Shown here in pieces: positions 3,242 through 30,560 of a stretch of DNA of 64,000 nucleotides. Positions within the stretch are counted from its first letter, which is position 1. Each line of letters opens with the position of its first letter. Source of the DNA: Rivularia sp. MS3 (GTDB lineage: Bacteria; Cyanobacteriota; Cyanobacteriia; Cyanobacteriales; Nostocaceae); the NCBI GenBank assembly GCA_019192545.1, contig JAHCMI010000053.1:1-64000 (forward strand), written 5' to 3'. Both the position numbers and the translations under genes were made by a program. The notes beneath the pieces are model-generated. The model saw only the letters and a list, made by a program, of their open reading frames with translations, was not told the DNA's origin and did not search any database.

Positions 3242-4729
3242 ATGAATCAGGCTCGACCGTTAGAAAAAATTCTGCTAATTGATGATAATCCGGATGACCG
3301 TCTTTTAGCAATGCGGGAACTTGCAAAGGAATTTTCTGATTTGCGAGTTTCAGAAATTATTGACGCAAAGGAGTTTGCATCTGCATTAGAAAGAGGTAAT
3401 TACGATCTAGTAATTACAGATTACCAACTTAAATGGACAAATGGGCTGGATGTTTTAAACGCTTTAAAAACTCATTATCCCGATATTCCGGTAATTATGT
3501 TTACTAATTCCGGTACTCAGGAAGTTGCAGTAACAGCGATGAAAGCCGGTTTGGATGATTATGTAATTAAATCACCCAAACATTTTGTTCGTTTAAGTCA
3601 AGCTGTGCGTTTAGCTTGGGAAAATGCTCAAACTCGTTTGAGATTGAATCAAACAAGTTTACGCTTGCAATTTCTATTAAATCAACTGAATGTAGGAGTA
3701 TTCCGAGCGACTTTAAATGGCGAACTTATTGAATGTAGCAATGGTTTTCTGCGTCTTTTAAAGTTGAATACCCCAGAAGAAGCAAGAATCTTTTTCCGTA
3801 GTTATCCAAAATTTCATTTATCTAAATCTTCCCAAAAGCCACCTTGGGAGAAAGAAATAAAATTATTACTTGATGGCAATCATATTTGGTTGATGTTGAG
3901 CGAAACTCTTACCGAGTTAGACGGTGAAACCGTGATTGATGGTTTATTGCAAGATATTACCGAACGTAAAAAAGCCGAAGCTGCAATTCAACAACTTAAC
4001 CAAACTCTTGAGCGTCGAGTTTCTGAACGAACTGCTCAATTAGAAGCAACAAACAAAGAGCTAGAAACCTTTGCTTATTCAATATCTCACGATTTGAGGT
4101 CGCCAATTCGTCAGGTGCAGAGTTTTGCCAAGTTATTGTACGAGTCTTTAAAATCAATCAATCTTTCCGAAGAGATTGATAGCTATCTAGAAATGATTAT
4201 TAAACTGACTCAAAGAGCCGGTAAGATGATAGATGACTTAATCGAGTTTTCCACCACCGGAAGATTTGAAATGTTCTACACAACTATTGATATGAATAGT
4301 TTGGTGGAAGAAGTCAAGCAGCAACTGATATCGCAAACTCAAGGTAGAACATTTATTTGGGATATTGAATCTCTTCCGAGGGTAAATGGCGATCGCACCT
4401 TGTTAAGAATAGTTTGGCAGAATCTCATCGAAAACGCGATTAAATATACCAGTCATAAAGATATTGCAGAAATTAAGATTGGTAGCACTTCAAACTCATC
4501 AGAAATCACTTTTTTTATCGTAGACAACGGAGTTGGGTTCGATATGCGTTATGTTGAAAGAATTTTCGGAATTTTTCAAAGACTGCATACCGACGCAGAA
4601 TTTGAAGGAACCGGAATCGGACTTGCTAACGTACAGCGAATTATTCATCGCCACGGAGGAAGAATTTGGACTCAATCAAAAATAAATCAAGGAACAACGT
4701 TTTACTTCTCTCTACCAATTAATAAATAA
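3242..4729 (+). CDS. hybrid REC-PAS-histidine kinase
   Basis: An N-terminal receiver (LLIDDNPDDR pocket, Asp in LVITDYQLKW, Lys in YVIKSP) is followed by a degenerate PAS domain (about 140-240), a coiled coil and HisKA/HATPase. The H-box is SISHDLRSPIRQVQSF with H283; ATP-binding boxes DNGVGF and GTGIGLANV are present. It is soluble, with no membrane segment. The kinase half is closely related to that of the gene at 266, so the cluster may form a phosphorelay. Start ATG 3242 is the first in-frame start and directly precedes the receiver. The signal sensed is unknown. Confidence 0.88.
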   Translation: MNQARPLEKILLIDDNPDDRLLAMRELAKEFSDLRVSEIIDAKEFASALERGNYDLVITDYQLKWTNGLDVLNALKTHYPDIPVIMFTNSGTQEVAVTAMKAGLDDYVIKSPKHFVRLSQAVRLAWENAQTRLRLNQTSLRLQFLLNQLNVGVFRATLNGELIECSNGFLRLLKLNTPEEARIFFRSYPKFHLSKSSQKPPWEKEIKLLLDGNHIWLMLSETLTELDGETVIDGLLQDITERKKAEAAIQQLNQTLERRVSERTAQLEATNKELETFAYSISHDLRSPIRQVQSFAKLLYESLKSINLSEEIDSYLEMIIKLTQRAGKMIDDLIEFSTTGRFEMFYTTIDMNSLVEEVKQQLISQTQGRTFIWDIESLPRVNGDRTLLRIVWQNLIENAIKYTSHKDIAEIKIGSTSNSSEITFFIVDNGVGFDMRYVERIFGIFQRLHTDAEFEGTGIGLANVQRIIHRHGGRIWTQSKINQGTTFYFSLPINK

Positions 4730-4974: not shown

Positions 4975-6924
4975 ATGTTGCATATTCTGTTGCTAGAAGA
5001 CGACTCAGCAGATTGCGAGTTAATTCGCGCTACTCTCAAAAGTGGTGGTATCAATTGTAATTTAAAAACGGTAGCGACTCGCCCAGCTTTTTTAACAGAG
5101 TTGCAAAATGATAGTTTAGATTTGATTTTATCTGACTATTTACTTCCTCAATTTGATGGCATTTTGGCTTTAAAATTAGCTCAAGAAACGTGTCCGGATA
5201 TACCTTTCATACTAGTTTCAGGGGTATTGGGAGAAGAAAGAGCTATAGAAGCCTTGAAAGAAGGAGCAACTGATTATGTTCTCAAGCAACGTTTAGAGCG
5301 GTTAGCTCCTTCTGTAAAAAGAGCATTGCGGGAAAGTTCGGAGCGTCAAGCTCTTAAACGTGCTGAAGAATCTTTGCGTCAGACAGACGATATGCTGCGA
5401 GCGGTGGTACAGTCTTCTCCGGTGGCAATCGTGACTTTGAGTTTGGATTATCAAGTTTTAACTTGGAATAAAACTGCCGAACAGGTTTACGGTTGGAAAG
5501 CCTCTGAAGTATTGCACAAACAGCTACCTGTAATTCCACAAAGAAGTAAGAGCGCTTTTAATGGTTGTGTAGAAAGACTCACTCAAAACCAGACTTTAAA
5601 AAACTTAGAATTTCGTCATCTAAAGAAAGACGGTTCTGAAGTTGATATTAATGTTTCTTTAGCACCCCTACATGACAATAAAGGAAATAGCTGCTGTTTT
5701 ATCATGACTGCGGTTGATATAACCTTAAGCAAGCAAGTGGAAGCAGAGCGTAAAGTTTTGTTGCAGCGAGAACGAAAAGCTCGTGCAGATGCTGAACAAG
5801 CAAGTCTAATTAAAGACGAGTTTTTAGCAATAGTTTCCCATGAATTGCGAACTCCCCTTAATGCAATTTTGGGATGGACTAAACTGATAAATAGCGGCAG
5901 AATTAAACCAGAAAGATTTCAACAAGCTTTAGAAGTTATCGACCGAAATGCGACTTTGCAAGCGCAATTAATCGAAGATTTACTTGATATTTCGCGGATA
6001 ATTCGCGGGCAACTGCATTTAGAGCTTCATCCAGTCAATTTAGCTAGTGTAATCAATGAAGCTGTAGAAACTTTACACTTAGCAGCAGAAGCTAAATCTA
6101 TTTGCGTAGAATTAAATTTGGATGAAAACGTCAGGAATATAGTAGGGGATTCCAATCGTATTTCTCAAGTGATGTGGAATTTAGTTTCTAACGCCATTAA
6201 GTTTACCGATATCGGGGGAACCATAGAAATTAGCTTACAGGAAGTAGGCTCAAACGCTCAAATTCAAGTTAGAGATACGGGCATTGGTATCGGTGAAGAT
6301 TTCATTGATTCAGTGTTTGAATATTTTCGTCAGGCAGATGGTTCTACAACCCGCTCTAAAGGTGGTTTAGGATTGGGTTTAGCAATTACCCGTAACTTAG
6401 TCGAAGCCCACGGTGGTAATATCCAAGTAGAAAGTCCGGGAGTAGGGTTAGGGACAGTTTTTACAGTTAAGTTTCCCGTAGTATTTAACAATGCCGCAGA
6501 CTCTGAATCTGCAAAACTTTTAGAAAACAGTCCCAAAGAACTTGCTTCTACCAGAATATTAGTAGTAGATGACGAACCCGATGCTCGGGAATTAGTAGCT
6601 TTTATTTTAGAAGAACAAGGTGCCCAAATCGAAATAGCAGATTCGGCAAAACAAGCTTTGTGTAAACTTGAAGAATTCGTACCTGATGTTTTAATCAGCG
6701 ATATTGGAATGCCAGGAGAAGACGGTTTTAGCTTATTAAGTAAAATACGCAAACTCTCAAGTAACAAAGGAAGTAATGTTGCTGCGATCGCCTTAACAGC
6801 ATTTGCCACGCAACAAGACCGTGAAAGAGCTATTGAGGCTGGTTTTCAAGCACATTTAGCGAAACCTTTTGATGCTGATGAATTGATTAACTTAGTAATT
6901 AATTTGTCACCGAAGACAAAGTAA
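4975..6924 (+). CDS. hybrid REC-PAS-histidine kinase-REC
   Basis: Soluble hybrid kinase with receivers at both ends. The N-terminal receiver (LLLEDDSADC, Asp in LILSDYLLPQFDG) is followed by PAS (about 135-255), coiled coil, HisKA with H289 in IVSHELRTPLNAILGW, HATPase (DTGIGI, GLGLGLAI) and a C-terminal receiver (ILVVDDEPDARE, Asp in VLISDIGMPGEDGF, Lys in LAKPF). This layout is common in cyanobacterial multistep relays. The H-box is of the classical HisKA type, unlike the two upstream kinases. Start ATG 4975. It is co-directional with the cluster but 245 bp downstream, so it may have its own promoter. Confidence 0.9.
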   Translation: MLHILLLEDDSADCELIRATLKSGGINCNLKTVATRPAFLTELQNDSLDLILSDYLLPQFDGILALKLAQETCPDIPFILVSGVLGEERAIEALKEGATDYVLKQRLERLAPSVKRALRESSERQALKRAEESLRQTDDMLRAVVQSSPVAIVTLSLDYQVLTWNKTAEQVYGWKASEVLHKQLPVIPQRSKSAFNGCVERLTQNQTLKNLEFRHLKKDGSEVDINVSLAPLHDNKGNSCCFIMTAVDITLSKQVEAERKVLLQRERKARADAEQASLIKDEFLAIVSHELRTPLNAILGWTKLINSGRIKPERFQQALEVIDRNATLQAQLIEDLLDISRIIRGQLHLELHPVNLASVINEAVETLHLAAEAKSICVELNLDENVRNIVGDSNRISQVMWNLVSNAIKFTDIGGTIEISLQEVGSNAQIQVRDTGIGIGEDFIDSVFEYFRQADGSTTRSKGGLGLGLAITRNLVEAHGGNIQVESPGVGLGTVFTVKFPVVFNNAADSESAKLLENSPKELASTRILVVDDEPDARELVAFILEEQGAQIEIADSAKQALCKLEEFVPDVLISDIGMPGEDGFSLLSKIRKLSSNKGSNVAAIALTAFATQQDRERAIEAGFQAHLAKPFDADELINLVINLSPKTK

Positions 6925-22125: not shown

Positions 22126-23001
22126 ATGTACCGTTTGCATAATAAAGCATTTGAAATCTTACGTGAGGAGATTGAGGTATGTAGTAGTAATGACAAAAAA
22201 GGGAAACAGAAAAGGCTAATTGCTCTGAAACGTTTGCAGCAAATGCGGTTGAATCCTGGAAGACGTGCCAAATTAAACGAGTTAAGGGATGCTGTTGTAG
22301 ATGTATTTCCCATCTTCAGCGAAACGGCACTTAAAGAAGCTGCTAAAGCCAATCGTAAACCAAGCATTTTTGGTAAATTCAAATATTTAGCAATTGGTTT
22401 AACGGGTGTTGCTGGGGTGGTGACAGTACTTAATTTACCGCATCCTAATATTCGCTGGTTTGTAGCAAAAACAGCGCCGATATTGCTTGTACCTTCTCAC
22501 ATGAACATGGATTTTCATTATTGGGGTGCAAGAAATTCAGTTCAAGAAGCACAAATTATGTTGAAATCTGCGGCTAATTTTTCCGACATTAAACAAGTTG
22601 AAAATAAAATTGCAGAAGCCGAACAACATTTAAGTCATATTCCAATTTGGTTTTTAGGATATTATCCAGAAGTTTATTGTCAAAACTTTAGCTGTAGTTG
22701 GAATTTTAGTTTTGATGAATTTGAAAATATTCGTACACAAATAATTCACCTTGAAACTAAAACAATTAGGGAAAAGCAGGCTTTTATTCCTTTAGTAGAA
22801 GCCCAACAAGTTTATAGAGGTGCAAAAAGAAAATTAAGCATAGCAAAAACTCAAAAGCAGAAACAGCTAGCAATGTTTTCTATGCAATCAGCTATCAAAA
22901 CAATAGCAGAAGTTCCGAGTGGCACCTTAGCGAAGAAAAAAGCAGAAACACAGTTAAAAGCTTATAAACGTTATTACGAGCAAGTAGCTCAAAAAAAATA
23001 G
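22126..23001 (+). CDS. unknown protein, tandem paralogue 1 (291 aa)
   Basis: I do not recognise a function. The N domain (about 1-85) is helical and basic, then a single membrane helix (about 88-106), then a region with conserved IPIWFLGYYPEVYCQNF and FDEFENIRTQI, then a coiled coil. Two Cys (YCQNFSCSW) may form a disulfide. The downstream gene at 23119 repeats the same architecture (LPVWFLGYYPQAYCGLFGC, FDEFETARRRV), so the two arose by duplication. Likely membrane-anchored with the C-terminal part on the other side of the membrane. Confidence 0.75.
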   Translation: MYRLHNKAFEILREEIEVCSSNDKKGKQKRLIALKRLQQMRLNPGRRAKLNELRDAVVDVFPIFSETALKEAAKANRKPSIFGKFKYLAIGLTGVAGVVTVLNLPHPNIRWFVAKTAPILLVPSHMNMDFHYWGARNSVQEAQIMLKSAANFSDIKQVENKIAEAEQHLSHIPIWFLGYYPEVYCQNFSCSWNFSFDEFENIRTQIIHLETKTIREKQAFIPLVEAQQVYRGAKRKLSIAKTQKQKQLAMFSMQSAIKTIAEVPSGTLAKKKAETQLKAYKRYYEQVAQKK

Positions 23002-23118
23002 CGCTTATTTGAGGATTTTTATTAAATCCTCACTTTTAATATTAAACATTTTAAATCAATTTAAATCAACATTTCAGAACGAGACTTTAATACAACACTT
23101 TCAATCAATAATAAAATC

Positions 23119-24447
23119 ATGTACCGTCTTAATGATGCCGCTTTTAAAATTTTACGGGGCGAACTGCTCAACTGTGGTTCTAATGATGATATCGGTAGAG
23201 CCGAAAGACAAATTGTAGCCAAGCGTTTTGAAAAACTGCGGATGCAAAAAGGTTCTCCAGTAACTTATGATGAGCTACTTTTATTAGTTGTTGATGTATT
23301 TCCAGAATTTAGCGAAAAGGCTTTAAAACAAGCGGCGAAAGCTAACCAACCACCAGGTATTTTAAGTAATCTAAAATGGTCAGCAATTTTTATTACTGCT
23401 TTTACAGGTGGTTTTGCAGGGATTATCTGGTTAGTAAATCTACCATACCCAATGATTCGTAAACCTGTGGCAGAGAAAGCACCGTTATTGCTTTTACCTT
23501 CTTATATCAGTATGGATAACAGCTATCGTGGAGCAATTAATGCTACCGAACAAGCAGATCAGTTAGTAAATAAAGCTACTAGTTTAGAAGATATTAAACG
23601 AGGTGGAGCTAAAGTTAAACAAGCACAAAGTAGTTTGGATAATTTACCCGTTTGGTTTCTAGGTTATTATCCTCAAGCTTACTGCGGTTTATTTGGATGT
23701 ACGTGGAAATTTACTTTTGATGAATTTGAAACAGCACGTCGTCGAGTTGCCAGAATGGATGCTAAAGTCTTCCAGGAGAAGAATGCTTTTGAATCATTAG
23801 AAAAAGCAGAGTCAGATTTAAAAGCCGCTAAAGAGCAATACGAACAAACCAAAAATTTAGCAGAAAAACAAAAAATCGTAGCGCAGATGCAAACCGCTAT
23901 GATTACCTTAGAGCAAATTCCCAGAGAAACCTTAGCAGGTAAAAAAGCACGTACTGTTATTGCAGCAATCAAACCCGAAGTCGGAAAGATAATTGCTAAC
24001 AGCGGTAAAAGTGGTGCTAGTGGTAATTTAATCGAAGCAGCAAAAGTATTCGCCATCCAAGCATCACAATTATCGCAAAATCCTCCCCATCCAACTTATA
24101 AATGGGAGCAAATCGAAAAACTATGGATACAATCAATCAAGCGGTTGCAGAATATCCAAGTTTCCAATCCCAATTATCTCGAAGCCCAGAAACTGCTAGC
24201 AAAATACCAAAGCAACCAAGCAATCATTCAAACTCGACTGCAAGCAGAAAGAGAATCCCAAAAAATTCTCAATCAAGCAGAAGCGCAAATTGAAAACTTT
24301 ATCGCAAATCCTCCATCAGAGCCAAATCGGTATAAAGCCAAATTACGGACAATTCTCAGCAAATTAAACAGCATCCAGTCAGGAACAACATCCCATGCAA
24401 GAGCCAAACAGTTGATATCTTCAATTCAGAAGCAACTGAAAAAATAA
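23119..24447 (+). CDS. unknown protein, tandem paralogue 2 (442 aa)
   Basis: Longer paralogue of the preceding gene: same start (MYRLNDAAFKILRGEL versus MYRLHNKAFEILREEI), same 'VVDVFPEFSEKALKQAAKAN' element, same membrane helix and WFLGYYPQAYC motif. It has an added C-terminal ~150 aa of Gln/Lys/Ala-rich coiled coil with two repeats resembling each other. Function unknown. The C-terminal extension may mediate assembly. The gap to paralogue 1 is 117 bp, so they may be co-transcribed. Confidence 0.78.
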   Translation: MYRLNDAAFKILRGELLNCGSNDDIGRAERQIVAKRFEKLRMQKGSPVTYDELLLLVVDVFPEFSEKALKQAAKANQPPGILSNLKWSAIFITAFTGGFAGIIWLVNLPYPMIRKPVAEKAPLLLLPSYISMDNSYRGAINATEQADQLVNKATSLEDIKRGGAKVKQAQSSLDNLPVWFLGYYPQAYCGLFGCTWKFTFDEFETARRRVARMDAKVFQEKNAFESLEKAESDLKAAKEQYEQTKNLAEKQKIVAQMQTAMITLEQIPRETLAGKKARTVIAAIKPEVGKIIANSGKSGASGNLIEAAKVFAIQASQLSQNPPHPTYKWEQIEKLWIQSIKRLQNIQVSNPNYLEAQKLLAKYQSNQAIIQTRLQAERESQKILNQAEAQIENFIANPPSEPNRYKAKLRTILSKLNSIQSGTTSHARAKQLISSIQKQLKK

Positions 24448-24586
24448 ACCACTAGTGTAGAGGTAGAGACATAAGAGAGAGGGGGGAAGAAAATATTTAT
24501 CTAACCCTCTAACCTTTAACCCGAGCAACAAATTATCCCAACTTCTTGCACTTGAGTAAGAATGTATGTTATATAAATAAAATTCC

Positions 24587-24660
<74 letters not shown>

Positions 24661-24688
24661 TTTTTGCCAAGAATGTTTTAGAAAAAGT

Positions 24689-24800
24689 TGTCTGTGACTT
24701 AAAGTGTCACTTGCCACATTATTTGACCGCCTTGACAGATTAATGTCCTGTGATTTGACCGCATATACATATGCGACAGATCACAATTAATAGACATCTG
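24689..24800. mobile_element. candidate decayed CAST/Tn7-like transposon end
   Basis: Starting 28 bp after the tRNA there is TGTCTGTGAC, followed by three spaced, degenerate copies of a GACA-ATTA-TGTC-like unit: TGCCACATTATTTGAC (24712-24727), TGACAGATTAATGTC (24733-24747) and GACAGATC...ATTAATAGACATC (24775-24798). From memory, type V-K CAST left ends carry arrays of TnsB sites including almost exactly TGACAGATTAATGTC, and these elements insert just downstream of tRNA genes. No tnsB, tnsC, tniQ or cas12k lies nearby, so at most a solo end remains. A GCATAT/ATATGC palindrome sits at 24761-24774. Confidence 0.45.
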
Positions 24801-25474
24801 CGGGAAAACATTTATTGTATAGCGGTTTTCAATCATTTATTCATTAAAAAATTAGATTACAGATTTTTATTTATCAACATATTTCCTTAAACTACATGGA
24901 ATATGTAATTGCCAAACAACATAATGATGTGTTAATCAACCAAATTTTATATAAAACTGATAATGAATAATCTAAACAAAAATTGCCGAAAAGTGCATTG
25001 CATTTATTGATTTTTATTGTTTTAATATCAGACTATTTTTATTAATCGTGAAGGTCATATTATTATTTACCTATATTTATAAAGTCTAAATGAATGTATA
25101 AAAATAGACTTTCAAAACCGGCAAGCATATATCAAACTTGTTAATCATATTCGGCTTTGTTACATAATTTTATCCTAATTGGTGTTTGAAATTACTTTGT
25201 TCTAGAGATTAACCTGTCATAGATTTACTCTAATTGGATGTTTTATCTTCGCTAATTACTTTTAGAAAATAGCTGATGCTTCACCCAAGTTAGATATTTA
25301 AGACAATTCATGTTAACTAGAACTTAAGCGTATTTTTTCAAAATATTGCTAGTTTGATGATGAGATTTATGTAACTGAATTTAGCTGAATTTATTCTGGG
25401 TGCTGGCGATAGTTAGAGCGTTTTTTGATTAAGGCTAACGCTTATTTTCTGATATCAAATATTAATGATTAACT
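24801..25474. other. ~670-bp AT-rich intergenic region
   Basis: No gene or convincing structure is seen between the candidate transposon end and the subtilase gene. The DNA is strongly AT-rich with stop codons in all frames. The subtilase promoter should lie in its right part. A second transposon end was looked for by eye and not found. Confidence 0.4.
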
Positions 25475-28400
25475 ATGCTAGAAATACAACCAAACAAATC
25501 TTCTCGAATTTCCGATAAACTGCTCGATTTGTATGAGGAATTTACAAGCCTACCAGAAACACGCAACGTTAATAATTCAGAAGTTTCACTCACTAATAGT
25601 GATATTCTCCAACTTAATGCAGCTAGAACAGAAGTTATTGTCAGAATTACTAGTAGTGATGTTGAAGGTTTATTACCAGCCTTAGAAGATTCGGGTTTTC
25701 AAGTTATCGGTTCGGCTCCAGATTTCAACTTTATTGAAGGTTGGATGCCGATTGACTTAATTCCCAATTTAGAAGAATTGGAAAGTCAAGGGCTTATGGG
25801 TGTGTTACCCGTTTATGCTCCTATAACTAACGTCGGTTCGGTAACTAGTCAGGCTGATTTTGTTCACGAAACAGATAGAGTTCGAGCGTCTCTTCCAACA
25901 GGTTTTGATGGTACGGGAGTAACTATCGGTGTTTTGAGCGATAGCTATGATACTTCGGGTAACGGTTCGGCTGCTGCTGATATAGCATCTGGAGATTTAC
26001 CTGCAAATGGAGTGACTGTGTTACAGGAAGGACGTAACAATGCAACAGACGAAGGTCGAGCAATGTTGCAGTTAGTTCACGACCTTGCACCCGGTGCAGA
26101 CCTCGCTTTTGCTACAGCATCTTTCAGTCCGGCAAACTTCGCTAATAACATTCGCGCTCTTGCAAATGCTGGCTCGGACATTATTGTTGATGATATCGCT
26201 TATCTTACAGAACCCTTTTTCCAAGATAGTGTTGTTAGTTTTGCCGTTGATGATGTAGTCACAAATAATAATGTGGCTTATTTTTCTTCCGCAGGAAATA
26301 GTGGCGATATTGCCTACGAATCTACAGATATCAATTTTGAAACTATCGGGCAAAATCTATTTTACGATTTTGATCCAAGTGCTAATGTCGATGTTACCCA
26401 AAGAATAACAATTCCTTTTGGTAGGCAAGTTAGATTGTCATTTCAATGGGACGACCCTTTCTTTACTCGCAATGGTGTAGATACAGACCTAGATATCTTC
26501 TTAATCAATCCTGCAACTGGTAACATTGTTGCTCAAGCTGATAATAATAATATTGCCAATCAAACACCTTCTGAATTTTTAGTCTTTGAAAATAATACTT
26601 TTCAGACGGATTTTGATGTCGCAATTAGGTTGTTTGATGGACCAGAACCCGGACGTATCAAATACATTCCTTTCGATCTAAGTTCTAACCCTGATGATAT
26701 TTATCAAGAGTTTGCGACTAACAGTTCAACTATCTTTGCTCATCCAGCAGCAACTAATGCTTCCGCTGTAGCAGCAGTTCCCTATTTTGACCAAGACAAC
26801 CCCGAACCCTTCACTTCTGTTGGTCCAACTACAATTCTGTTTGAAACCGACGGTACCCGCAAAGCTACACCAGAAGTCCGCCAAACACCTGATATTGCAG
26901 CGATTGATAATACTGACACTACATTCTTCGGTAGCGATATTGATGGTAATGGTTTTCCCAATTTCAGCGGAACTTCAGCAGCCGCACCCCATGCAGCAGC
27001 CGTTGCAGCTTTGGTAAAACAAGCAAATCCAACATTTACTCCGCAACAAATCTATGACAGATTAGAATCAACTGCCAAAGATATCGGCGCTCCCGGTTAT
27101 GACAATGTTACCGGACATGGATTAATTAACGCTTACGATGCTATTTTTGGTCCGGTTGTACCAGCACCGCTCAACTTCACAGATAACTTTGAAGATGGCG
27201 ACCTCCCTATTGCTTATGAAACCAAAACTAATGGTGCTGGAAGGATTCAAGTTACGACTGAAAATAATCCCATTGGTACGCGACATCTGACATTAGATAG
27301 CTCGCGTAATAGATTTGATTCTCTAAATGAAGTAATTTTGCACGTTGATACAACTGGCTTTGATAACGTGCAACTCAGCTTCGATCAGAGGGAATTCGAT
27401 GACGAAGATAATCTGATGCCACAAACCTTTACAGGCTCGAATAATTCTGATGGTGTAGTTCTGAGTGTTGACGGTACAAATTGGTTCCGTTTAATTAGTT
27501 TGACTGGTAGTAACTCAACAGAGACTTATCAAACAAACAGCTTTAATTTAAGTACATTTGCTGCGAACAACAGTTTAACTCTCGGCTCGGATGTTCGGAT
27601 TAAGTTCCAGCAATTTGATGATTTTCCAATTGAAACTGGTCTTGATGGATTTGCTTTTGACAATATTTCTGTTACGGGTGATTCTTTAGCAGGCTTCACT
27701 GTCACAGAATCCGACGGCAATACTACGGTTACAGAAGCCGGTAGCACGGATACATTTACAGTTGTTCTCGATACTCAACCAACTGACGACGTAGTAATTT
27801 CAATTACTAATCCCGATACAACTGAAGCAACTGTTTCTAGCAACAGCCTTACTTTTACAGCAGCTAATTGGGATACAGCGCAAACGGTAACTGTAACTGG
27901 TGTTGATGACAATTTAGTTGATGGAAATCAAACTACTCCATTAACTTTGAGTGTAGATGCAGCTAACAGCGACGATAATTTTGATTCTCTTGCAAATCAA
28001 ACCGTAAACGTTATCACCGTTGATGATGATAGTGCAGGCTTCACTGTCACAGAATCCGAGGGAAATACTACAGTTACAGAAGCCGGTAGCACGGATACAT
28101 TTACAGTTGTTCTCGATACTCAACCAACTGACGACGTAGTAATTTCAATTACTAATCCCGATACAACTGAAGCAACTGTTTCTAGCAACAGCCTTACTTT
28201 TACAGCAGCTAATTGGGATACAGCGCAAACGGTAACTGTAACTGGTGTTGATGACAATTTAGTTGATGGAAATCAAACTACTCCATTAACTTTGAGTGTA
28301 GATGCAGCTAACAGCGACGATAATTTTGATTCTCTTGCAAATCAAACCGTAAACGTTATCACTATTGATGATGATAGTGCAGGCTTCACTGTCACAGAAT

Positions 28401-29122
28401 CCGACGGAAATACTACGGTTACAGAAGCCGGTAGCACGGATACATTTACAGTTGTTCTCGATACTCAACCAACTGACGACGTAGTAATTTCAATTACTAA
28501 TCCCGATACAACTGAAGCAACTGTTTCTAGCAACAGCCTTACTTTTACAGCAGCTAATTGGGATACAGCGCAAACGGTAACTGTAACTGGTGTTGATGAC
28601 AATTTAGTTGATGGAAATCAAACTACTCCATTAACTTTGAGTGTAGATGCAGCTAACAGCGACGATAATTTTGATTCTCTTGCAAATCAAACCGTAAACG
28701 TTATCACCGTTGATGATGATGTTAACATTCAAATTCTTGGTACTAAAGGACGCGACGTTCTTACAGGTGACGATACCGACAACATAATCACTGGTTTACA
28801 AAGTCGCGACATTCTCACTGGAGGTGGTGGCAATGATGAATTTGTTTATACCTCACTCAGAGATGCAGGAGATATCATTACCGACTTTGAAGTTGGTAGC
28901 GACACAATAGTTCTGACACAGTTACTCGATAGCTTAGGTTACACGGGTTCCGATGCAATTAGCGACGGTTACGTTAGCTTTGGTGCAAATGGAAATGATG
29001 CATTTGTTCAAATCGACCAAGACGGAACAATGGGTAGCCGTTTTGCTAGAACCATTATCACTTTAGAAAACGTAAGTCTGACTGAAATATCCAACCCCAA
29101 TAACTTCGTATTTGAAGCTTAA
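25475..29122 (+). CDS. subtilase-fold protein with Calx-beta-like repeats and RTX-like C terminus
   Basis: Large secreted-type S8 (subtilisin-like) protein of 1215 aa. The catalytic Asp is probably D156 in VTIGVLSDSYD, the oxyanion Asn lies in SSAGNSGD, and the nucleophile is S501 in FSGTSAAAPHAAA. At the place of the usual HGTxVA motif the sequence reads DEGRAMLQLVHDLAPGA, so the standard His is not where expected. A jelly-roll-like domain follows (about 570-735), then three 115-aa Calx-beta-like repeats (about 739-1083) and RTX-like glycine repeats (GTKGRDVLTGDD, LTGGGGNDEFVY). There is no N-terminal signal peptide; the RTX tail fits type I secretion. Confidence 0.85.
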   Translation: MLEIQPNKSSRISDKLLDLYEEFTSLPETRNVNNSEVSLTNSDILQLNAARTEVIVRITSSDVEGLLPALEDSGFQVIGSAPDFNFIEGWMPIDLIPNLEELESQGLMGVLPVYAPITNVGSVTSQADFVHETDRVRASLPTGFDGTGVTIGVLSDSYDTSGNGSAAADIASGDLPANGVTVLQEGRNNATDEGRAMLQLVHDLAPGADLAFATASFSPANFANNIRALANAGSDIIVDDIAYLTEPFFQDSVVSFAVDDVVTNNNVAYFSSAGNSGDIAYESTDINFETIGQNLFYDFDPSANVDVTQRITIPFGRQVRLSFQWDDPFFTRNGVDTDLDIFLINPATGNIVAQADNNNIANQTPSEFLVFENNTFQTDFDVAIRLFDGPEPGRIKYIPFDLSSNPDDIYQEFATNSSTIFAHPAATNASAVAAVPYFDQDNPEPFTSVGPTTILFETDGTRKATPEVRQTPDIAAIDNTDTTFFGSDIDGNGFPNFSGTSAAAPHAAAVAALVKQANPTFTPQQIYDRLESTAKDIGAPGYDNVTGHGLINAYDAIFGPVVPAPLNFTDNFEDGDLPIAYETKTNGAGRIQVTTENNPIGTRHLTLDSSRNRFDSLNEVILHVDTTGFDNVQLSFDQREFDDEDNLMPQTFTGSNNSDGVVLSVDGTNWFRLISLTGSNSTETYQTNSFNLSTFAANNSLTLGSDVRIKFQQFDDFPIETGLDGFAFDNISVTGDSLAGFTVTESDGNTTVTEAGSTDTFTVVLDTQPTDDVVISITNPDTTEATVSSNSLTFTAANWDTAQTVTVTGVDDNLVDGNQTTPLTLSVDAANSDDNFDSLANQTVNVITVDDDSAGFTVTESEGNTTVTEAGSTDTFTVVLDTQPTDDVVISITNPDTTEATVSSNSLTFTAANWDTAQTVTVTGVDDNLVDGNQTTPLTLSVDAANSDDNFDSLANQTVNVITIDDDSAGFTVTESDGNTTVTEAGSTDTFTVVLDTQPTDDVVISITNPDTTEATVSSNSLTFTAANWDTAQTVTVTGVDDNLVDGNQTTPLTLSVDAANSDDNFDSLANQTVNVITVDDDVNIQILGTKGRDVLTGDDTDNIITGLQSRDILTGGGGNDEFVYTSLRDAGDIITDFEVGSDTIVLTQLLDSLGYTGSDAISDGYVSFGANGNDAFVQIDQDGTMGSRFARTIITLENVSLTEISNPNNFVFEA
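27689..28723 (+). repeat. three 345-bp near-identical tandem repeats
   Basis: Units begin at 27689, 28034 and 28379, each exactly 345 bp (115 codons), starting gcaggcttcactgtcaca. They differ at only a few bases (Asp/Glu in TVTESDG/TVTESEG, Val/Ile before DDD). Near-identity including silent positions points to recent amplification or gene conversion. Copy number is likely to vary between strains and to be hard to assemble. Confidence 0.95.
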
Positions 29123-29252
29123 GCGCAATCATTGATATTGCTAGAAACTCTTGTGAAATGGAGAGAAGTTGGGGGGAAGATACTCTTCCCCCAAACTACA
29201 GAGCATCTTGTCCGTCCAATTAATACTCAAAACAATAAGGAGCATTCACTAA

Positions 29253-29996
29253 ATGTCATTCATCAAAAACTCAACCTTAACTGCTGGTTTAATTAGTTTA
29301 TTAAGTTTAACTACTATTGCTGCAAAACCATCCCAAGCTGCTGTTATTGACTTTAACAGTTGGAATTCCACTGGTGACGTTTCAATTCAGGGTAGCGGAC
29401 AAGTTAATATGTCTAACTCATCCTTTGGATTTGGAGATGATACAGACTTTAATCCGAGTAATCCAGACGCATATAATTATACCCAAAACAATGTTTCTAC
29501 AGAAGCAAACGGTTCTCTACAAAACTTTGTTGGTGTAAACAATAACGACTTAGATATTAATGGTCAAGCTTTTGAAGGTTCTGCTGTGAAAACAACTATT
29601 ACAGCGCTAGCAGGTGATAAATTGAACTTCAAATGGAACTTTCTTACTAACGAAACCGCTACTTCAGCACCTTTTACTCCTTTAAATGACTTTGCCTTTG
29701 TCAGCATTAATGGTGTTGTAAATAAGCTAGCTGATTTCACTAATGCATCCAATAGTTCTAACTTTTTCGATTCAGAAACCGGACAAAACGCTTTTAGTTA
29801 TACCTTTGCACAGCAGGGAAATTATCAAGTAGGTATTGGTGTAGTTGATATTGATGACTACGGTGTCACATCAGCCTTACAAGTTACTAACGCAGAAGTC
29901 GAACCCGTACCGGAACCTTTAACTATTCTCGGCACTGGTGTCGCTGCGGGATTTGGCTTTATGTTCCGTCGCAAGCGCTCTAAAAAACAAGCTTAG
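29253..29996 (+). CDS. PEP-CTERM sorted extracellular protein
   Basis: A 247-aa exported protein. The N-terminal signal peptide (TLTAGLISLLSLTTIAAKPSQAA) precedes a beta-rich Asn/Ser/Thr-rich body, and the C terminus has the full PEP-CTERM signal: VPEP, a hydrophobic helix (LTILGTGVAAGFGFMF) and a basic tail RRKRSKK. Such proteins are sorted by exosortase and often end up in exopolysaccharide or the outer surface. AAGGAG precedes ATG 29253 by about 10 bp. A strong terminator follows at 30036. Its body matches no family I can name. Confidence 0.88.
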   Translation: MSFIKNSTLTAGLISLLSLTTIAAKPSQAAVIDFNSWNSTGDVSIQGSGQVNMSNSSFGFGDDTDFNPSNPDAYNYTQNNVSTEANGSLQNFVGVNNNDLDINGQAFEGSAVKTTITALAGDKLNFKWNFLTNETATSAPFTPLNDFAFVSINGVVNKLADFTNASNSSNFFDSETGQNAFSYTFAQQGNYQVGIGVVDIDDYGVTSALQVTNAEVEPVPEPLTILGTGVAAGFGFMFRRKRSKKQA

Positions 29997-30035
29997 TCGC
30001 TAATCTAATAGTAATAACTAATAAATTTTTGACCT

Positions 30036-30060
30036 AGTCCTCTAAAAGAGGACTTTTTAT
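30036..30060 (+). terminator. Rho-independent terminator
   Basis: Perfect 7-bp stem AGTCCTC/GAGGACT with a TAAAA loop followed by TTTTAT, 40 bp after the stop of the PEP-CTERM gene. Confidence 0.88.
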
Positions 30061-30560
30061 TAATTTGAATGATTTAAATTTTACTATCTCACTTCATTTC
30101 TATACCGCAAATCAAAAGCATATTGGTTCGAGATACATCTAATTGGTTAGAGGTACATCTAATATATTTCCATTAAATAGCAAGCTCCTCAAACCTACTA
30201 TACAAACCAACAGCGCTCTAAAACAAATTTCGCCTTCAATGTATTAAATAAACCATAACACTTAATCTTTTATTCAAATAAATACTGAAAATACAGTCCC
30301 AGTATCGGACTTTTTTAGTAAACCAAAGTCTTATCCTACGAGTTTACCGAAGCTTTTATCTCTAACTACCAATTTTAGAATCCAAATATTCGCAATTCAT
30401 CCTCTTTTAAGTTCAAAATTATAAAGAGTACGCAAAAAATAATAGTTACTATAGACACCTTTAAGAGTACTGAGATAGCTTGTATATATCGAAACGGAAT
30501 TACTACGCAATAAGTGATTCTTTAAAGTTTGAAAGTGCAATAAGAGAAGAGTTTTTAGTA

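Follow-up and report, generated by a model that had tools for sequence, protein, structure and literature searches.

The window analyzed here, a 64,000-nucleotide (64-kb) stretch of Rivularia sp. MS3 (contig JAHCMI010000053.1, positions 1 to 64,000), carries on its forward strand a valine tRNA gene, tRNA-Val(GAC), at 24587-24660 (ARAGORN). This is the attachment-site gene, and just after it, at 24705-24748 on the same strand, lies a remnant of about 44 bases that represents the outer part of the left end (LE) of a type V-K CAST, an RNA-guided transposon. The remnant comprises an 8-bp terminus, TGTCACTT, and the first two TnsB sites, L1 and L2, with motif starts at 24711 and 24732. Native flank, outside the LE profile match described below, occupies 24661-24704 (+) between tRNA and element. 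The initial annotation had placed the switch into the element at 24689; TGTCTGTGAC is indeed present there, but the end begins at 24705, and 24689-24704, being outside the profile match, is more likely native flank than element.

On the other side of the remnant, RNA folding of 24661-24800 predicts a hairpin, TGTGATTTG...CAGATCACA, at 24749-24786 (+); A+T-rich hairpins just inside the end were also noticed by eye in the congeners G005 and G001. Farther on, between the LE remnant and a conserved flank, 25475-29122 encodes a 1215-aa subtilase-family protein with repeated domains. We considered whether 24749-30156 might be CAST cargo and set this aside. Positions 24749-25480 have only weak matches in 217 genomes, the best outside the window's own genome (G000) being E 1.8e-5 in G004, upstream of an orthologue of the S8 peptidase. 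That orthologue is on contig C301 and the G004 tRNA-Val match on C251, so the peptidase is not established as CAST cargo.

The identity of the end is carried by two profiles, both built with the window left out of training and both resting on ends whose relatedness was itself defined by sequence. The first, from ten LEs of Cas12k-bearing elements, matches the 64-kb window at 24705-24748 with E 4.6e-13, the runner-up being E 0.024 at 6898-6920. The second, from the LEs of G005, G023, and G020 (the last a genome with no Cas12k match), finds the same interval in the 64 kb at E 3.4e-11. The initial annotation had named the lack of any CAST-end match as grounds for giving up its idea, and both profiles return a match.

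Its proposal of three TnsB-like units survives for two of them. A scan of both strands of the 64 kb with a 17-base TnsB-site matrix, made from 29 sites, ranks 24732 first (21.5 bits) and 24711 third (19.6 bits); the third proposed unit does not score as a site. Rank 2 is a lone site at 4125 (20.8 bits), and no second pair with a spacing of about 21 bp occurs among the top 25 scores listed for the 64 kb. The two window sites correspond to two of the four in the LE of G005, to which the window LE is 95% identical across 44 nt, and homology to G005 ends at 24748, past the second TnsB site. A right end (RE) was also considered as the identity of the window end, and is ruled out by site spacing and query scores. 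The spacing of the first two sites is one base shorter in ten REs than in ten LEs of the same elements, and that of the window end, 21, is the LE form; likewise, the end scores 62.6 bits with an LE query vs 42.8 with an RE query.

The window LE belongs to the TGTC..TTGCC type. At 24733-24747 it contains TGACAGATTAATGTC, which probably matches a TnsB-site segment of the ShCAST left end; the same 15-mer is present in the LEs of the Cas12k-bearing elements G142, G178, and G145. The ShCAST end is presumably of the TGTAC type, unlike that of the window.

When window positions 24400-25000 were searched in 41 genomes (the window's own and 40 relatives), several matches, away from the tRNA match, spanned query positions 301-363 only, which points to a dispersed element end. 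Six of these places were read by eye: five (G020, G023 twice, G012, and G019) directly follow a tRNA gene or a stretch resembling the 3' end of one, and the sixth is a set of facing ends in G014. The window LE likewise follows a tRNA gene that points toward the element, the position given for V-K CAST left ends in PMC9938897.

In G005, of the same genus, a V-K CAST that retains its two ends occupies the corresponding position after the same tRNA-Val. Its order is tRNA-Val, an LE with four TnsB-like sites, cas12k facing the LE (NF038191, E 3e-285), and then a MerR-family gene (Pfam MerR_1, E 7.6e-15) beside cas12k in reverse orientation. After the cargo come genes with TniQ (E 2.6e-10), TniB (E 4.9e-32), and Mu-transpos_C/rve (E 3e-20) domains, and the right end lies at g5r 29137-29180. 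This is the layout set out in the pertinent section of PMC9938897, in which the LE downstream of a tRNA is followed by the CRISPR array and cas12k, with tnsB at the right end. The flanks of the window and of G005 match over 22385-24748 on the left and from 30157 onward on the right. The two loci are therefore alike in tRNA, side, LE terminus, L1-L2 sites, and flanks; they differ in that G005 has four LE sites, an anchor spacer, genes, cargo, and an RE, whereas the window shows the outer 44 nt only.

Six of the seven congeners (all but G003) were read at tRNA-Val. Besides the full CAST of G005, this revealed solo or decayed ends in G001, G002, and G004, an end of another type in G006, and a locus with no LE in G007. 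Two LE sites are kept in G001 and one and a part in G002, and the LE of G004 is degraded. After the LE, G001 and G002 have in common a stretch that is 97% identical over 653 bases and, by eye, resembles an antitoxin gene.

The relatives also bear on the guide. In G005, the reverse complement of CGAATCCAGTTACGTCC occurs 196 bases beyond the tRNA copy and adjoins CTTTCCAC, a putative truncated repeat. This 17-nt anchor is an exact copy of the last 17 tRNA-Val bases before the final A, and GTT precedes those bases. The same exact anchor stands beside CTTTCAACC in G101 and G217, and no anchor spacer was seen at the G215 tRNA-Val locus. Because the 17-nt anchors at three tRNA-Val loci (G005, G217, and G101) match exactly the 17 bases that follow it, the PAM in the window is most likely the GTT at 24640-24642 (+), with CGAATCCAGTTACGTCC at 24643-24659 (+) as the probable anchor protospacer. 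The PAMs first suggested, GTT at 24618 or GTA at 24627, give way to this one, as the three tRNA-Val loci with a readable anchor use the counterpart of GTT 24640 instead. The accompanying idea of a PAM distance of some 60-66 bp fits the window, whose LE lies 62 nt from GTT 24640.

Measured from the same PAM, the distance to the LE is 62 nt in G001, 63 in G002, 61 in the decayed G004, 53 in G005, 61 in G215, 59 in G101, and 44 in G217; those of G005 and G217 fall outside 60-66. A GTN PAM 46-82 nt ahead of the left end is usual in V-K CASTs, with one exception in 147, according to the part of PMC9938897 that treats insertion distance, and the 44 nt of G217 is outside this range too. The window has a GTN PAM in the 46-82 nt range, a weak criterion on its own in that five GTNs of the tRNA fit it. 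Ends of the TGTAC/TATAC type at tRNA-Val lie 28 nt (G022) and 26 nt (G013) from the same PAM and probably used another guide; in G006, a TGTAC-type end lies 59 nt from it.

Support for an LE edge at TGTC comes from ten reference elements, in five of which (G178, G229, G145, G042, and G143) direct repeats of 5, 5, 7, 8, and 9 bp abut both TGTC edges. The other five, G005 included, have no repeat of ≥5 bp within 12 bases of the edges, and an edge 5-mer was common to 0 of 90 mismatched flank pairs. In the window, TAAAG at 24700-24704, directly ahead of the LE, may be the left copy of a 5-bp duplication. It resembles the site in G007, whose LE-less flank has GATTTAAAG in about the same position; this stretch stops 67 nt from the PAM, against 62 in the window, which reads GACTTAAAG ahead of its LE. 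The comparison of tRNA-Val loci envisaged at the outset yielded an occupied site in G005 and an LE-less one in G007; the target duplication that it was also hoped to reveal was not found in the window.

Little else of the element was found. The window's own genome, a draft of 174 contigs, has one LE match, no match to Cas12k (NF038191), and no match to the TnsB of G005, a query that strongly detects G005 and G006 in the same search. The assertion that no transposase or Cas12k gene remains therefore stands for these two queries in this draft assembly. The matching right end that was anticipated did not appear in a PWM scan of 24750-30500, where the best TnsB-site score is 6.5 bits. Nor does the region after the LE contain, on the expected strand, an anchor spacer with up to five mismatches to the tRNA-Val anchor. 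The end itself is thus the sole witness at the window's locus, where neither CAST genes nor an anchor spacer, a duplicated target, or a right end came to light, and as no transposase of its kind was found in the genome, the remnant is most likely inert.

Similar scars beside tRNA genes are common in related genomes. Among 217 family genomes, the LE query matches 106 at E 0.001 or better and Cas12k is found in 134 at E 1e-10 or better; 28 of the 106 are without Cas12k at that threshold, a number that includes LE-query matches to right ends (e.g., G214, G213, G050, and G129) and is drawn from assemblies of which many are drafts. In genomes without Cas12k, the matches listed comprise at least 19 that are LE-specific, in 17 genomes, and at least 9 that are RE-specific, in 8, by a hand count of matches reaching query base 60 or beyond. 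A same-strand tRNA lies within 120 bases upstream of 28 of the best 30 LE matches in the family, including 10/10 of those in genomes without Cas12k; in the separate ten reference elements, ARAGORN places a tRNA ahead of the LE in seven. G020, a single contig with no Cas12k match, has a four-site LE, along with an anchor spacer that matches its tRNA-Thr with one mismatch.

Several individual loci deserve mention. An anchor spacer is still readable beside the left ends L106 (G020) and L116 (G217), both in genomes without a Cas12k match. In G019 (L034:8909-9000), a TGTAC-type and then a TGTC-type left end follow one tRNA in tandem. The facing ends of G014 (L035:9261-9606; G014:C257:13260-13605) are an LE and an RE that together form a miniature CAST-like arrangement, spanning 346 bp and devoid of cargo; no tRNA was noticed alongside. 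A 1.3-kb LE/RE pair beside tRNA-Arg in G141 (G141:C56:17203-18510), whose genome has no Cas12k match, is a candidate non-autonomous derivative.

We conclude that, very probably, the DNA downstream of the window tRNA-Val once received a V-K CAST of the G005 kind, which was later lost except for the outer part of its LE. The initial proposal of a solo V-K CAST end beside this tRNA is in this respect borne out: the profiles match, the G005 CAST occupies the same place, and neither Cas12k nor a G005-type TnsB is matched here. The identity, place, and orientation of the end are established, as are the congener element with both ends and the outcome of the searches for Cas12k and a related TnsB. As to the guide used, the order of events, and the mode of loss, we infer from the relatives a course in which a truncated repeat and 17-nt anchor spacer would have directed Cas12k to the tRNA gene's 3' portion with GTT as PAM, TnsC and TniQ would have set the insertion distance, and TnsB would have made the left-end junction some 62 nt away from that PAM. 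The CRISPR array, cas12k, cargo, tniQ-tnsC-tnsB, and right end would then have been lost, and the LE terminus with two TnsB sites would have stayed.

Solo LTRs of retroelements, in which a lone terminal repeat marks a lost element, are a parallel. CAST ends, unlike LTRs, are inverted repeats of one element, and a direct pair of LEs needs two insertions. A version of the explanation just given, differing from it in the mode of loss, invokes such a pair: a new CAST would have inserted on the tRNA side of an older LE and been removed by LE-LE recombination, leaving one LE. Forty REs, mostly with long matches, were picked by eye from the listed RE matches (two pairs from one genome, one duplicated copy, and some genomes without Cas12k are included), and up to 300 bases outside each were read. 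When matches of E ≤0.5 to either of two profiles are counted, 6/40 flanks (G052, G101, G142, G229, G042, and G088) have an LE-like match in direct orientation, so that ends are stacked at one tRNA site. Five of the six begin within 6 nt of the right end, and the five elements concerned have a Cas12k match on their own contig, either next to the LE or inside the LE-RE interval. The match in G052 is to an LE of the type seen in the window, with two sites (E 2.8e-15; L175, outside the right end at C1:2876144). The opposite orientation gave two weak matches, one in G218 and one on a near-palindrome in G229; no LE-like match arose in 200 base-shuffled flanks, and stacking that looks similar by eye in G145 and G163 is below threshold in the profile search.

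Direct-orientation LEs abutting right ends indicate that some CASTs have landed against an older LE, and recombination between such direct pairs could leave a solo LE. Nevertheless, we think it unlikely that the window LE arose in this way. Three of the six stacked matches are weak (G142, E 0.0065; G229, E 0.033; G042, E 0.21), the tRNA-Val loci of this genus showed no intermediate, and among the matches listed for Cas12k-less genomes LE-specific ones outnumber RE-specific ones by only 19 to 9, counts that plain deletion fits too. The window LE, moreover, is short, with two sites, which is what decay predicts. The broader notion that tRNA genes of the family are a layered record, with CASTs repeatedly landing at one guide-defined spot between a tRNA and an older LE and being erased by LE-LE recombination to a solo LE, seems to us similarly doubtful.

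Simple loss from a CAST of the G005 kind must also be weighed against descent from a related Tn7-like element without Cas12k, whether a non-CRISPR element or a deletion derivative mobilized in trans. A lone LE cannot distinguish the two, and Cas12k-less LE-RE pairs do exist, as in G014 (C257, 346 bp) and G141 (C56, 1.3 kb). However, the closest LE found, at the same tRNA and in the same genus, is that of G005 and belongs to a Cas12k-bearing element with both ends, and we rate such an ancestry as quite improbable. Still less credible is retention of the sequence because it serves the host, for instance by terminating the tRNA transcript, with its CAST-end likeness secondary: 24661-24800 does fold better than shuffles (z -3.67), but the strong hairpin lies after the LE remnant, and G004 has the LE in degraded form and G007 not at all. 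A chance match can be dismissed, for although the lone site at 4125 shows that single TnsB-like sites arise by chance, the profile match at E 4.6e-13, the tRNA-adjacent position, and the congener CAST at the same place speak decisively against it.

The window remnant is a relic of a known kind. V-K CASTs are already described in PMC9938897 and PMC11406308, as are their use of a truncated repeat with a spacer to home on tRNAs and the occurrence of degenerate cas12k copies. TnsB sites L1 and L2 adjoin an 8-bp terminal sequence in ShCAST as well (PMC9876797, PMC9371665), and in a designed ShCAST substrate the LE starts 61 bp from the PAM (PMC9876797) vs 62 here. No description of solo V-K CAST ends was found in the literature searched, key papers lying outside that search. 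The survey in PMC9938897 took CAST components, Cas12k among them, as its starting point and would thus overlook dead elements of which an end is all that survives.

Left ends with their PAM distance, and sometimes an anchor spacer, make past guided insertions countable and re-used tRNA sites visible. V-K CASTs are without TnsA and a separate recombinase, and they seem to show target immunity (PMC11406308). Scars such as the one in the window bear on the fate of cointegrate-making elements for which no exit route is known, and on whether target immunity is lost when the LE alone remains.
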